From: Acidobacteriota bacterium
Lineage (GTDB): Bacteria > Acidobacteriota > Blastocatellia > UBA7656
Assembly: GCA_040754075.1 (NCBI GenBank)
Contig: JBFMDH010000004.1
Location: forward strand, 124,001 to 188,000
Direction: 5' to 3'
Length of the DNA: 64,000 nt
Under the pieces are notes generated by a model. It ran no database searches. It saw only the letters and a list, made by a program, of their open reading frames with translations, and was not told where the DNA came from. Both the position numbers and the translations under genes were made by a program. Within the stretch, counting starts at the first letter, position 1; each line of letters begins with the position of its first letter. Below, piece after piece: positions 4,080-11,200 of the stretch.

Positions 4080-5309
4080 ATGGTAACAATTCAATCTTTT
4101 GATGGACAGGAATTTTCCGCTTACTTAGCTCTGCCAAAAAGCCAACCGGCTCCCGGCATCGTGCTGCTACAAGAAATTTTTGGTGTCAACGAAGTGATGC
4201 GCTCGCTTGCCGACTGGTACGCAGGGCGCGGCTTTGCGGTCATCTGCCCGGATTTATTCTGGCGACAGGAACCCGGCATTCAACTCACCGATAAAACCGA
4301 AGCTGAATGGGCGCGTGCCTTTGAACTTTATCAAGGCTTGGACGAAGCCAAAGCCATTGAAGACGCCAAAGCCGCTTTGCATTTTTTACGCGCGCATCCG
4401 GCTTGCACAGGCAAAGTCGGCAGTGTCGGTTTTTGTCTCGGCGGCAAACTCGCTTATCTGATGGCGACGCGCTCAGACGCTGACGCCTCGGTTGGGTATT
4501 ACGGCGTCGGCATTGAACGGGCGCTTGATGAAGCGGTGAATATCAAACAGCCGTTGATGTTGCACATCGCCGAAAAAGACCAGTTCTGTTCCGCTGAAGC
4601 GCAGGCAAAAATTCATGCGGCGCTTGATGATAACCCGCTGATTACGATTCACGATTATGCAGCGCAGGATCACGCTTTTGCCCGCATCGGCGGCAAACAT
4701 TACAACCCCGATGCGGCGGAACTTGCCAACTTGCGCAGCGTCGAATTTTTTGTTCGTCATTTGATTGGCGCGCACACTACGCTTTCGGCGCAGGCGCTTT
4801 CGGATTTGTGGGAAGAACATGTCAAATACGAATTCGCCACGCGCAACACCGAAGACACCCTGGCGACGATGGTTTCAGACGCCTATGTCAATCATATTCC
4901 GGTGCTCACGGGCGGCGTAGGCCGTGATGAACTGCGCGAATTTTATGCAAAGCGATTCATTCCGCAGATGCCGCCCGATACCCGTATGACGCCTGTATCG
5001 CGTACCGTCGGCACCGACCGCGTGGTTGATGAAATGATTTTTGAATTTACCCACACGATTAAAATGGATTGGATGTTGCCGGGCGTTCAGCCTACGAATA
5101 AACACGTTCGTGTGCCGCTGGTTGCCATCGTCCATTTTCGCGACGGCAAACTGGCGCACGAACATATTTATTGGGATCAGGCATCTGTTCTGGTGCAACT
5201 CGGTTTGCTGGATGCGGCAAAATTGCCTGTGGTCGGTGATGAAAGCGCGGCAAAGGTTTTGAACCCATCACTGCCCGCCAATCAGTTGATGACAAGATGT
5301 GAAGAATGA
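4080..5309 (+). CDS. Dienelactone hydrolase fused to a SnoaL-like domain
   Basis: The first ~230 residues are a dienelactone-hydrolase-type alpha/beta hydrolase. It has an LLQEIFG strand-turn, the nucleophile elbow GFCLGG with Cys near 119, an Asp near 165 in AEKDQF, and a His near 197 in QDHAFAR. The remaining ~170 residues (from about 240, LWEEHVKYEFATRNTEDTL) look like an NTF2/SnoaL-like cone, including HIPVLTGGVGRDELREFY and VPLVAIVHFRDGKLAHEHIYWD. Free-standing DLH proteins are about 230-250 residues, so this is a natural two-domain fusion. The substrate is unknown. The Cys-Asp-His triad is complete, so activity on lactones or esters is likely. It is followed by a bidirectional terminator. 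Confidence 0.85.
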   Translation: MVTIQSFDGQEFSAYLALPKSQPAPGIVLLQEIFGVNEVMRSLADWYAGRGFAVICPDLFWRQEPGIQLTDKTEAEWARAFELYQGLDEAKAIEDAKAALHFLRAHPACTGKVGSVGFCLGGKLAYLMATRSDADASVGYYGVGIERALDEAVNIKQPLMLHIAEKDQFCSAEAQAKIHAALDDNPLITIHDYAAQDHAFARIGGKHYNPDAAELANLRSVEFFVRHLIGAHTTLSAQALSDLWEEHVKYEFATRNTEDTLATMVSDAYVNHIPVLTGGVGRDELREFYAKRFIPQMPPDTRMTPVSRTVGTDRVVDEMIFEFTHTIKMDWMLPGVQPTNKHVRVPLVAIVHFRDGKLAHEHIYWDQASVLVQLGLLDAAKLPVVGDESAAKVLNPSLPANQLMTRCEE

Positions 5310-5551: not shown

Positions 5552-7027
5552 TCAATGTTTAATTTTGAGCCAGGCGGTGGCGGCATTGAACGCGGCATTG
5601 ATTGCGGTTGTGTGACAGGCGGCGCAGGCGGTTTTCAAATTGACACGCCCGTAACCTTTAGCGGGTTTGGCGGCGTGCAAACTGCCGGGACCGTGACAGG
5701 CTTCGCATTCGACGCTGGCAAAACGCGGCAACTGATTCTCTCCCTGATCTCCTGACGCATGGCATTGCAGACAGCCGGTCAGGAATTCATCTTTTTTGGT
5801 GACCACCGCATCCATTGAGCGGGCGTGTTTGCTGTTCGTCCATTTCAGATACGGTTCGGCGTGACAGCTTGCGCAGGTCTGCGAAGAGACAAAAGTCGCC
5901 GTGCCCGATTCGCTCTTATCGGGTTTGGAAAACAGCAACCGCCTTTGCGCTTGCAGATTGAACTCGCTCAAGGTTTGTTGCGCCGCTTTGTATGCCGCAA
6001 GCGTCGCGTCTTTGGCATCGGCAACGCCTTTCAAAGTCTCAGCATCTTCGCCGACCATGAAATCCATCGCCGCATAGCGTTCGCGGACGGTAAATTTGCC
6101 CGTCGTCGTTTTATAAAAGCGCAGTTCACCGATGAGTCGGGTTTCATAAGGCGTAATCGCAATCAGGGTTTCGCCGAGTCGCACAGGCGGCAGATACATA
6201 TCGCCGGTGCCGGTCAAAATAACGTTGATTGCCGGAACCTCTTTTGCGAGTCGCACAACATCCGCAATCGGCAAACGCGCCAGCGCAACGATAATCTCGG
6301 CTCGGTTTTTGAGTTCGGGAACGAGGCGTTTAGCTGCCGCAATCGGGTCGGTGATTTTTATGGTTGATGAAATGTCCGTCGCTTCGGTTAAACCGATGAG
6401 CGCCACGCGCACCGTTGAACCGTCAGCCAGTTTCATTTCGCGAATGAGGTAAGGTTGCGGCGGCGTGATGGCGGGATTTGCAAAAACGGTGTTTGCGGCA
6501 AGCAGATTTTTCAACACCCCGAATTTTTCGCTTTGCATCGCAAATTGATTTTTATTCAGCCACGCGGAGATGGAATTTAATTCTGCGGCTGCCAGATTCA
6601 TGGCGTCGTAGCCGTTTTTTGAATAGAGGCTCAAAACCCAGTCGTTTTTCGCAAGCGCATCAACGCGCCCGCCGCCGTGGGTGACGCGGTCACCGGCAAA
6701 AGTGTTGCCGGTATCGACAAGCAGCGTCGGAACTCCTGTGAATTTCTGATGGAATGCTTTGATATAACTGACGCTCCGCGCCAGCCCGCCCTGTCTCGGC
6801 TCTTTTCAGCCACAGGGTTCGAGGTTGCCGTGCAACTCGCCGGTGAAATGAATCACCAGTGACGGTTTATCATCTGCGCCAAGTCTCTGGTCAAGCGTAG
6901 TGCCGACGCCGACGATTTCGGTCTTTTGTTGCGCGATTCCGGTTTTCAGGTTGAGCGATAATGCGACAGCCATCGCCAACATAAAAATCAAAGCAAGCAG
7001 TTTGGCTCTTTTGATTGATGAATACAT
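5552..7027 (-). CDS. 5'-nucleotidase-like/tetraheme cytochrome with in-frame TGA (candidate selenoprotein)
   Basis: From the ATG at 7027 one frame runs 491 codons to the stop at 5552, broken only by TGA at codon 74 (bases 6806-6808). The N-terminus has a signal peptide (LLALIFMLAMAVALSL). Residues about 60-330 resemble UshA-type metallophosphatase/5'-nucleotidase domains: FTGELHGNLEPCG, then TGA, then KEPRQGGLARS, and later LLVDTGNTFAGD. The last ~110 residues carry four CxxCH c-heme motifs (CASCH ~385, CLQCH ~419, CEACH ~441, CAACH ~468), as in cytochrome c-554-like electron carriers, so the protein is presumably periplasmic. From memory, relatives have Cys where the TGA falls (PCGC followed by GGLAR), so TGA may encode selenocysteine. 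The alternative is a nonsense mutation or read error. No other disruption is visible across 1.4 kb. Confidence 0.75.
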
Positions 7028-8484: not shown

Positions 8485-11200
8485 AACTCAATCGGCTAAC
8501 AATCGCCTCTTCGATTTTCACACGGGCTAGAGTTCCTGCAACGCAAAGGGCTTACGGTGTTTCAATCGGCTAACAATCGCCTCTTCGATTTTCACCAGCA
8601 AATAAGCTTTCTCGTCACCATGCACCTCGGGTTTCAATCGGCTAACAATCGCCTCTTCGATTTTCACCTGAGTCGCATTCTGGCTATCGCGGGCGTCGAA
8701 GAGGGTTTCAATCGGCTAACAATCGCCTCTTCGATTTTCACCTGTCGGCTTTGTTGCCGGTGGTGGCGTCGGGATCATGTTTCAATCGGCTAACAATCGC
8801 CTCTTCGATTTTCACCCGACATTCTATATTTGACAATACTAGAGTTTTATCTGGGTTTCAATCGGCTAACAATCGCCTCTTCGATTTTCACAACGAAGCG
8901 AATATAAGTGAACGCAAACCAGGTTACGGTTTCAATCGGCTAACAATCGCCTCTTCGATTTTCACGAAATACTGCCGACAAAAGAAGTTCTAGAATACTG
9001 TCTGTTTCAATCGGCTAACAATCGCCTCTTCGATTTTCACAACTGGTTTTTGCCGCCATCTGCCAGAATTACGGCGGGTTTCAATCGGCTAACAATCGCC
9101 TCTTCGATTTTCACGGTTTGAACGCGACCGCCAACACGTCGAACTGCGCAACAGTTTCAATCGGCTAACAATCGCCTCTTCGATTTTCACGTGGAATAAC
9201 GTCGGTTGAAAACGAGCAGATCTGCGAGGTTTCAATCGGCTAACAATCGCCTCTTCGATTTTCACGAGTTTTTATTCCCGCCCTTCATTGAATGAATCCG
9301 AGTTTCAATCGGCTAACAATCGCCTCTTCGATTTTCACGACAGGAATTTTACACTAAAGAGGGTGTAATATTTAGTTTCAATCGGCTAACAATCGCCTCT
9401 TCGATTTTCACACGAGACTGATTGCCGAAGCCGGCAGTGACACTGCCAGTTTCAATCGGCTAACAATCGCCTCTTCGATTTTCACAAAAATTTTCTTACC
9501 CATTCGCAGATAGGACCAGGTTTCAATCGGCTAACAATCGCCTCTTCGATTTTCACGACAGGCAGAAGTTTGTTCTGCCCGGAAACCAAACCCGTTTCAA
9601 TCGGCTAACAATCGCCTCTTCGATTTTCACCCATCGATTCAACCTACCTACACTCCACCACTCACCGGTTTCAATCGGCTAACAATCGCCTCTTCGATTT
9701 TCACGAACGGGCTTCCGTCCTTCATGAAGGACAATTAATATTGTTTCAATCGGCTAACAATCGCCTCTTCGATTTTCACAAGTTTTCCATCAAGGAGACT
9801 GCAACTGCCGTTACGTTTCAATCGGCTAACAATCGCCTCTTCGATTTTCACGTGGAATAACGTCGGTTGAAAACGAGCAGATCTGCGAGGTTTCAATCGG
9901 CTAACAATCGCCTCTTCGATTTTCACAGATGGCACAGCGAATGCTTGAGTGAAAATCGAAGAGGGTTTCAATCGGCTAACAATCGCCTCTTCGATTTTCA
10001 CGGAGTTCCTCGGTGACGCTCGCGAGCTCAAAGATGGCGTTTCAATCGGCTAACAATCGCCTCTTCGATTTTCACCTATGACTGGATTGTGGTGAGATGG
10101 CGCCGCATTCGCGTTTCAATCGGCTAACAATCGCCTCTTCGATTTTCACAACATCAACACCATTGCTCACTAATGGCAATCCATTCGCGTTTCAATCGGC
10201 TAACAATCGCCTCTTCGATTTTCACCCCGATGTCATCATCTGTTCGTTCAGATATAGTGACAGTTTCAATCGGCTAACAATCGCCTCTTCGATTTTCACC
10301 CGAAGGATGTACGCTGGAATACATCAAACAACCCGGTTTCAATCGGCTAACAATCGCCTCTTCGATTTTCACTCTGATGACCTGATGACAAGGTTTGATG
10401 CATGTCTATGTTTCAATCGGCTAACAATCGCCTCTTCGATTTTCACATAAGAAAACTAAAAGGAGAATAATATGTTTCTTGCTGGTTTCAATCGGCTAAC
10501 AATCGCCTCTTCGATTTTCACAAAAAGTAACAAATCTTAAAAGGGCCGCGATTTTGGTGTTTCAATCGGCTAACAATCGCCTCTTCGATTTTCACAATAC
10601 TGGTAATCAGAGGCCTGATCATCGCTTATTTGGTTTCAATCGGCTAACAATCGCCTCTTCGATTTTCACACATCTTCACAGACTCCAATACAGTCAGTTA
10701 CAAGTAGTGTTTCAATCGGCTAACAATCGCCTCTTCGATTTTCACTGGCAAACTTTCGGTTATTGCCCAGATGCAAGCTTTTATATGTTTCAATCGGCTA
10801 ACAATCGCCTCTTCGATTTTCACAAACTGGGATGCGCTTCGCTTGTCGCATCCGAAGACCAAGTTTCAATCGGCTAACAATCGCCTCTTCGATTTTCACA
10901 CGATGCTCGCTTGGTCAAAGTGCTCAAGGAGTATTCCTGTTTCAATCGGCTAACAATCGCCTCTTCGATTTTCACCCTGCGGCGATCCTTAGAGTTAACG
11001 GATGCTGAAATCTTGTTTCAATCGGCTAACAATCGCCTCTTCGATTTTCACGTTATGACAGAGGGGGGTACTTCTCAGTCAAACCTTTTGTTTCAATCGG
11101 CTAACAATCGCCTCTTCGATTTTCACTCGAAGCAAACAGCTTGATAGTAAGGGAGAAAATTAGGTTTCAATCGGCTAACAATCGCCTCTTCGATTTTCAC
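8485..11200 (-). CRISPR. CRISPR array, 37 repeats and 36 spacers, no cas genes nearby
   Basis: I count 37 copies of a 37-bp repeat (plus strand GTTTCAATCGG...TTCGATTTTCAC), with starts from 8485 to 11164. The spacers are 35-39 bp. On the minus strand the repeat ends ATTGAAAC, the usual 8-nt crRNA handle of many type I and III systems, so I place transcription right to left. This agrees with the leftmost repeat (8485-8521) being degenerate in its first three bases, as trailer-end repeats often are, and with an A+T-rich leader-like region on the right. All other repeats look identical. Spacer 9191-9228 is repeated exactly at 9852-9889. Spacer 9927-9964 contains 16 nt of repeat. No cas gene lies within the window, so the effector must be encoded elsewhere or be missing. 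Short open frames through the array are artefacts of the repeat. Confidence 0.98.

Follow-up and report, generated by a model that had tools for sequence, protein, structure and literature searches.

A divergent UshA-like selenoprotein gene of an Acidobacteriota bacterium joins a nucleotidase-type domain to a tetraheme cytochrome domain

The 64-kb stretch of DNA analyzed here (the window) encodes on its minus strand a member of the known family of UshA-like CxU selenoproteins, from a divergent branch in Acidobacteriota, in which a 5'-nucleotidase/SoxB-type domain is fused to a cytochrome c554-type tetraheme domain. Comparison with relatives indicates that its in-frame UGA codon 74 is almost certainly decoded as selenocysteine (Sec) by SelB and tRNA-Sec, directed by a hairpin at UGA+20 to +40. 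Our overall explanation, which we consider probable, is that this divergent UshA-like selenoprotein has a decayed metal site and a Cys-Sec pair that exchanges electrons with the hemes. New here are the position of the Sec insertion signal and the decay of the active site of the ancestral nucleotidase, with the Cys/Sec pair retained.

A sequence-only reading of this DNA had described a 491-codon frame at 5552-7027 that is open except for a single TGA at codon 74 (6806-6808), with four intact heme motifs, and this description holds on the minus strand. The residues flanking the codon are EPCG-TGA-KEPRQGGLARS, which gives the CxU motif of UshA-like selenoproteins as C72-G73-U74, and the four CxxCH motifs lie 3' of the TGA in the same frame. 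The features of the gene are as follows.

5552-7027, minus strand: gene of a UshA-like tetraheme selenoprotein with 491 residues, the 74th being Sec; stop codon 5552-5554 (translation; NCBIfam NF041198, 192.5 bits; Pfam Cytochrome_C554; same TGA in relatives).
6932-7027, minus strand: N-terminal signal sequence, hydrophobic helix of residues ~1-32 (from sequence; export predicted).
6812-6814, minus strand: Cys72 codon, partner in the CxU motif (Cys in 114 of 115 aligned rows, the remaining row gapped).
6806-6808, minus strand: UGA codon 74, predicted to be read as Sec (Sec or Cys in every row with a letter there; Sec machinery in the genome).
6053-6877, minus strand: UshA/5'-nucleotidase/SoxB-like domain, residues ~51-325, metal-ligand positions decayed (AlphaFold2 model; structural matches; ligand positions).
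5555-5875, minus strand: cytochrome c554-like tetraheme domain (Pfam PF13435; c554 (1bvb) profile match at 6.9e-19; conservation).

The product is best explained as an exported selenoprotein: the N-terminal helix points to export, which c-type heme attachment needs. A lipobox-like Cys is found at the N-terminus of two Sec paralogs, L002 of the same genome and the related L029.

Counting the window gene, TGA occupies the equivalent codon in 57 rows, from independent genomes of several phyla, which is far beyond chance. Coding conservation is seen on both sides of the codon and extends beyond it as far as the C-terminus, and third-base G+C hardly differs between the two sides (0.58 and 0.59). 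These observations speak against TGA 74 being a genuine stop codon, a mistake of the assembly or a mutation in a pseudogene, a possibility that we regard as hardly credible. General reassignment of UGA is likewise not supported, as TGA terminates 9 of the 26 long ORFs in the window. The genome (7.58 Mb in 68 contigs) carries all four components of the Sec machinery for which the sequence-only reading had proposed a search: SelA (566 bits), SelB (383 bits, above its cut-off), SelD (353 bits) and, on a small contig, a tRNA-Sec whose TCA anticodon reads UGA (tRNA-Sec(UCA)). The SelD gene (L086, 1501-2424) itself contains a TGA in frame, close to the N-terminal end of the product (SCAG-U-AAK), which makes SelD a probable selenoprotein here as well. 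The presence of SelB proved useless for telling Sec-form from Cys-form genomes, since 132 out of 162 genomes in the class carry it, Cys-form genomes among them. Within the 64-kb window, Rfam at gathering thresholds returned two tRNAs and nothing else.

We gathered relatives by whole-genome searches and a collection scan, the latter with a close alignment of nine rows as query (a 33-row alignment was too diverse), and scored 115 rows. The residue aligned with codon 74 is Sec in 57 and Cys in 58 of the 115, with one row gapped there; the Cys that the sequence-only reading had attributed to relatives at the position of the TGA is present in many of them (CGC). For the first set of relatives, which left out remote phosphatases outside the family that carry other residues at position 74, this position was scored directly from the alignment, with no requirement for Cys or Sec, and multiheme members show only U or C. 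Rows of the second set were picked by a motif that requires Cys or Sec, so exclusivity in that set is partly due to selection; five rows that lack the motif were set aside, namely L167 (PTG-U), two with SCNC and two that begin after the site. On the tree, Sec and Cys labels change 11 times, and strongly supported branches force at least four exchanges. The window gene clusters with L055 and L056 (support 100), separate from the clade of L002. This second Sec paralog of the genome reads ETCG-U-PAHPMGGLAR, and a third copy, L003, is a short, heme-less Cys form (ELCDC). The proposal that the gene encodes a selenoprotein is thus supported: the genome has the machinery, Sec and Cys replace one another among relatives, and a candidate SECIS follows the codon.

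Several relatives stand apart in other respects. L167, which lies outside the 115 rows, retains Sec and has Thr at the position of the partner Cys72. The Cys form L076 retains a 7-bp SECIS-like stem and has a Sec form, L073, as its tree partner, possibly reflecting a recent Sec-to-Cys change. Six Cys forms (L147, L151, L155, L158, L159 and L163), from Latescibacterota and one Gemmatimonadota record, have frames of ~1000 residues, twice the usual length.

The sequence-only reading had also placed a SECIS-like hairpin directly after the TGA. Such a hairpin exists, at a different position from the one named.

6766-6786, minus strand: SECIS hairpin GGCUGGCGC-GGA-GCGUCAGUU, 9-bp stem, loop 6775-6777 (pairing and covariation; Sec versus Cys relatives).
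6776-6799, minus strand: hairpin proposed earlier, not supported as a signal (29.8% of cells paired, no covariation beyond shuffles; -6.3 kcal/mol).

The supported hairpin spans UGA+20 to +40, 13 nt beyond the one proposed earlier, with a GGA triloop from UGA+29 and a predicted stability of -11.1 kcal/mol. It falls within the bSECIS limits quoted in PMC13188914: a loop of 3-9 nt with a G within its first two positions, a stem of 4-16 bp, 16-37 nt from the UGA and -7.5 kcal/mol or lower. Across the alignment, 91.1% of cells are paired in the stem at UGA+22 to +38, versus at most 44% in slid versions. Covariation in this stem scores 0.393, where shuffled versions average 0.198, and four pairs are changed on both sides (17 cells); for either measure, none of 500 shuffles was as high. 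The covariation can be read directly from the codons, where the third base of an Ala codon varies with the third base two codons on (GCA/CGU, GCG/CGC, GCC/CGG). A looser scan found a candidate hairpin in all 56 of 56 Sec rows, with the triloop from UGA+29 in most; some Sec rows have an alternative nearby hairpin whose loop lies at +19 to +24, and in a few rows the candidate is weak. The hairpin is mostly absent from Cys relatives, and median stability is -11.1 kcal/mol in Sec rows versus -5.1 kcal/mol in Cys rows (p=1e-10, a value overstated because related sequences are not independent). The signal from a synonymous-codon folding test was modest (mean z of -1.42 in Sec versus -0.47 in Cys rows); the covariation and bSECIS-model tests are stronger. 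The position of the SECIS in the UshA-like family is thus now located by covariation, which is new. The stem proposed earlier forms 7 of 7 pairs in the window gene and only 0-4 of 7 in the other Sec relatives tested, its loop follows directly after 15 nt from the UGA, and its stability misses the energy limit.

An ocean survey of 2008 already catalogued UshA-like CxU selenoproteins (COG0737; 76 Sec and 92 Cys forms; PMC2398784), and they were relisted in 2026 with NF041198 and the motif CxU (PMC13188914). The window protein shares their UshA/5'-nucleotidase homology, their CxU motif and the occurrence of both Sec and Cys forms; its likeness to the 2008 proteins is by description rather than by sequence, and PMC2398784 leaves the heme part unmentioned (the word 'cytochrome' is absent). 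NF041198 (UshA_like_PCGU, 'UshA-like (seleno)protein') has the same two-part architecture and C-x-Sec site, with Sec and Cys members, and the profile matches both the UshA-like part (positions 18-266) and the heme part (about 347-518). Because the family has been listed since 2008 and this profile covers both parts, neither the Sec nor the fusion is new, and the earlier claim of a new selenoprotein does not stand. Unlike the NF041198 equivalogs, the window protein scores 192.5 bits, below the curated cut-off of 275, and we therefore file it as a divergent branch rather than an equivalog. L055 (217), L056 (209) and the paralog L002 (266) also score below the cut-off, which L030 (282) passes. 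Genes of this branch, lying under the NCBI cut-off, may be annotated as two fragments. Other multiheme cytochromes carrying Sec are more distant: MccSep (PDB 9wt8 and related) gives a weak match along the heme stretch (E 0.0097), and ExtKL (NF040886) gives 26.6 bits against a cut-off of 250. We found no function for the UshA-like selenoprotein family in the literature consulted.

The AlphaFold2 model (mean pLDDT 83.5, mostly 90 or more in the N-terminal domain) predicts that the N-terminal domain keeps the 5'-nucleotidase/SoxB fold, its structural matches being 5'-nucleotidases, as in UshA and CD73-type enzymes, and SoxB (Z 27-28). Unlike in these proteins, the metal-ligand positions, assigned by alignment to a 5'-nucleotidase, are mostly replaced. 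Where an active 5'-nucleotidase is expected to have the dinuclear ligands D, H, D, N, H and H, the window protein has E64, H66, N108, A147, R251 and T274, so that one of six is kept and five are changed. No row keeps more than four, none of the 115 keeps all six, and the motif III Asn is not among the common residues at its position in relatives. By contrast, the aligned rows show no variation at C72, residue 74, G80, G81 and G107. To judge from these alignments, the metal site of the metallophosphatase fold has decayed, and phosphate-ester hydrolysis has very probably been lost with it. Three or four of the six positions are kept in 50 of the 115 rows, so some members may bind metal.

In the window protein, the tetraheme domain takes the place of the C-terminal nucleotidase domain of UshA and CD73-type enzymes. 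It matches PF13435 at 36.6 bits (cut-off 20.8) and Nitrosomonas cytochrome c554 (1bvb/1ft5) at E 6.9e-19, and likewise has four CxxCH motifs, at residues 385-389, 419-423, 441-445 and 468-472; it differs from c554 in its fusion to the UshA-like domain and in having three further conserved His. The model covers this domain at modest confidence (pLDDT roughly 40-80). As the additional conserved His number just three (401, 451 and 491), one heme may lack a distal His. Cytochrome c554 also has one heme without a distal His.

With five of six metal-ligand positions changed, we lean slightly toward Cys72-Sec74 being a redox centre wired to the hemes and not a metal site. In such a mechanism, Cys72-x-Sec74 would form a reversible selenenyl-sulfide, or would reduce a peroxide or disulfide-type substrate, and the pair would exchange electrons with the fused tetraheme wire. 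The sequence-only reading had envisaged a new redox or metal-binding centre; its redox part is plausible. Its metal part fares poorly. The idea of a still active nucleotidase in which the selenolate and Cys72 would bind metal as a new centre draws on the location of the CxU motif, which lies in the loop that follows the first beta strand, just past the first metal motif position of the metallophosphatase fold. The metallophosphatase ligands are nevertheless largely gone while C72 and U74 stay, no scored row has a full set, and a redox role is more usual for Sec (PMC2398784, discussion), so we judge a metal centre improbable. The same survey places UshA-like proteins among families without a recognised Cys-based redox motif. 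A role akin to that of SoxB is somewhat less improbable, although still unlikely: the pocket would act on carrier-bound sulfur, Cys/Sec would transfer the sulfur and the hemes would remove electrons. The structural matches include SoxB (Z 27), and the SoxB model TIGR04486 scores 98.6 bits on L139, a more canonical relative; on the window protein, however, that model scores 16.5 bits against a cut-off of 550, the metal-ligand positions are changed and no sulfur-oxidation gene was recognised among the neighbors scanned.

Returning to the Cys-Sec redox centre, a DsbA-like gene with a CGHC motif lies downstream in 24 loci, mostly of Nitrospinota with Cys forms and as a rule no more than about 100 bases away, a hint of thiol redox chemistry; this neighbor accompanies only Cys forms from other phyla, which counts against extending the redox inference to the window gene. 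The Thr of L167 at the position of Cys72 means that a selenenyl-sulfide pair cannot be universal. More tentatively, and with somewhat less than even confidence, we suggest that a phosphatase scaffold with a decayed metal site has been rebuilt as a selenol/thiol redox enzyme, its Cys-x-Sec pair beside the former metal motif feeding a fused tetraheme wire, in a family that occurs across many bacterial phyla with Sec or with Cys. The family gains a testable frame in which the Sec site is set apart from the decayed phosphatase site, together with a few conserved residues worth mutating: C72, U74 and the heme ligands.

The neighbors of the window gene (a dienelactone hydrolase-SnoaL fusion, an AMP-binding enzyme and a short family-less protein) gave no functional clue, and no operon partner was recognised among them. 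The fusion, at 4080-5309, joins a dienelactone hydrolase to a SnoaL-like domain; the two are separate genes in L092, which, as in the window, has a dienelactone hydrolase gene and a gene of AMP-binding size close to its copy. Elsewhere in the window, a CRISPR array at 8486-11160 comprises some 36 copies of the 37-nt repeat GTTTCAATCGGCTAACAATCGCCTCTTCGATTTTCAC. A 112-nt block with spacers is present within it in two identical copies (9154-9265 and 9815-9926), and at about 9941-9965 the end of a spacer, GTGAAAATCGAAGAGG, is the repeat's 3' end in reverse complement.
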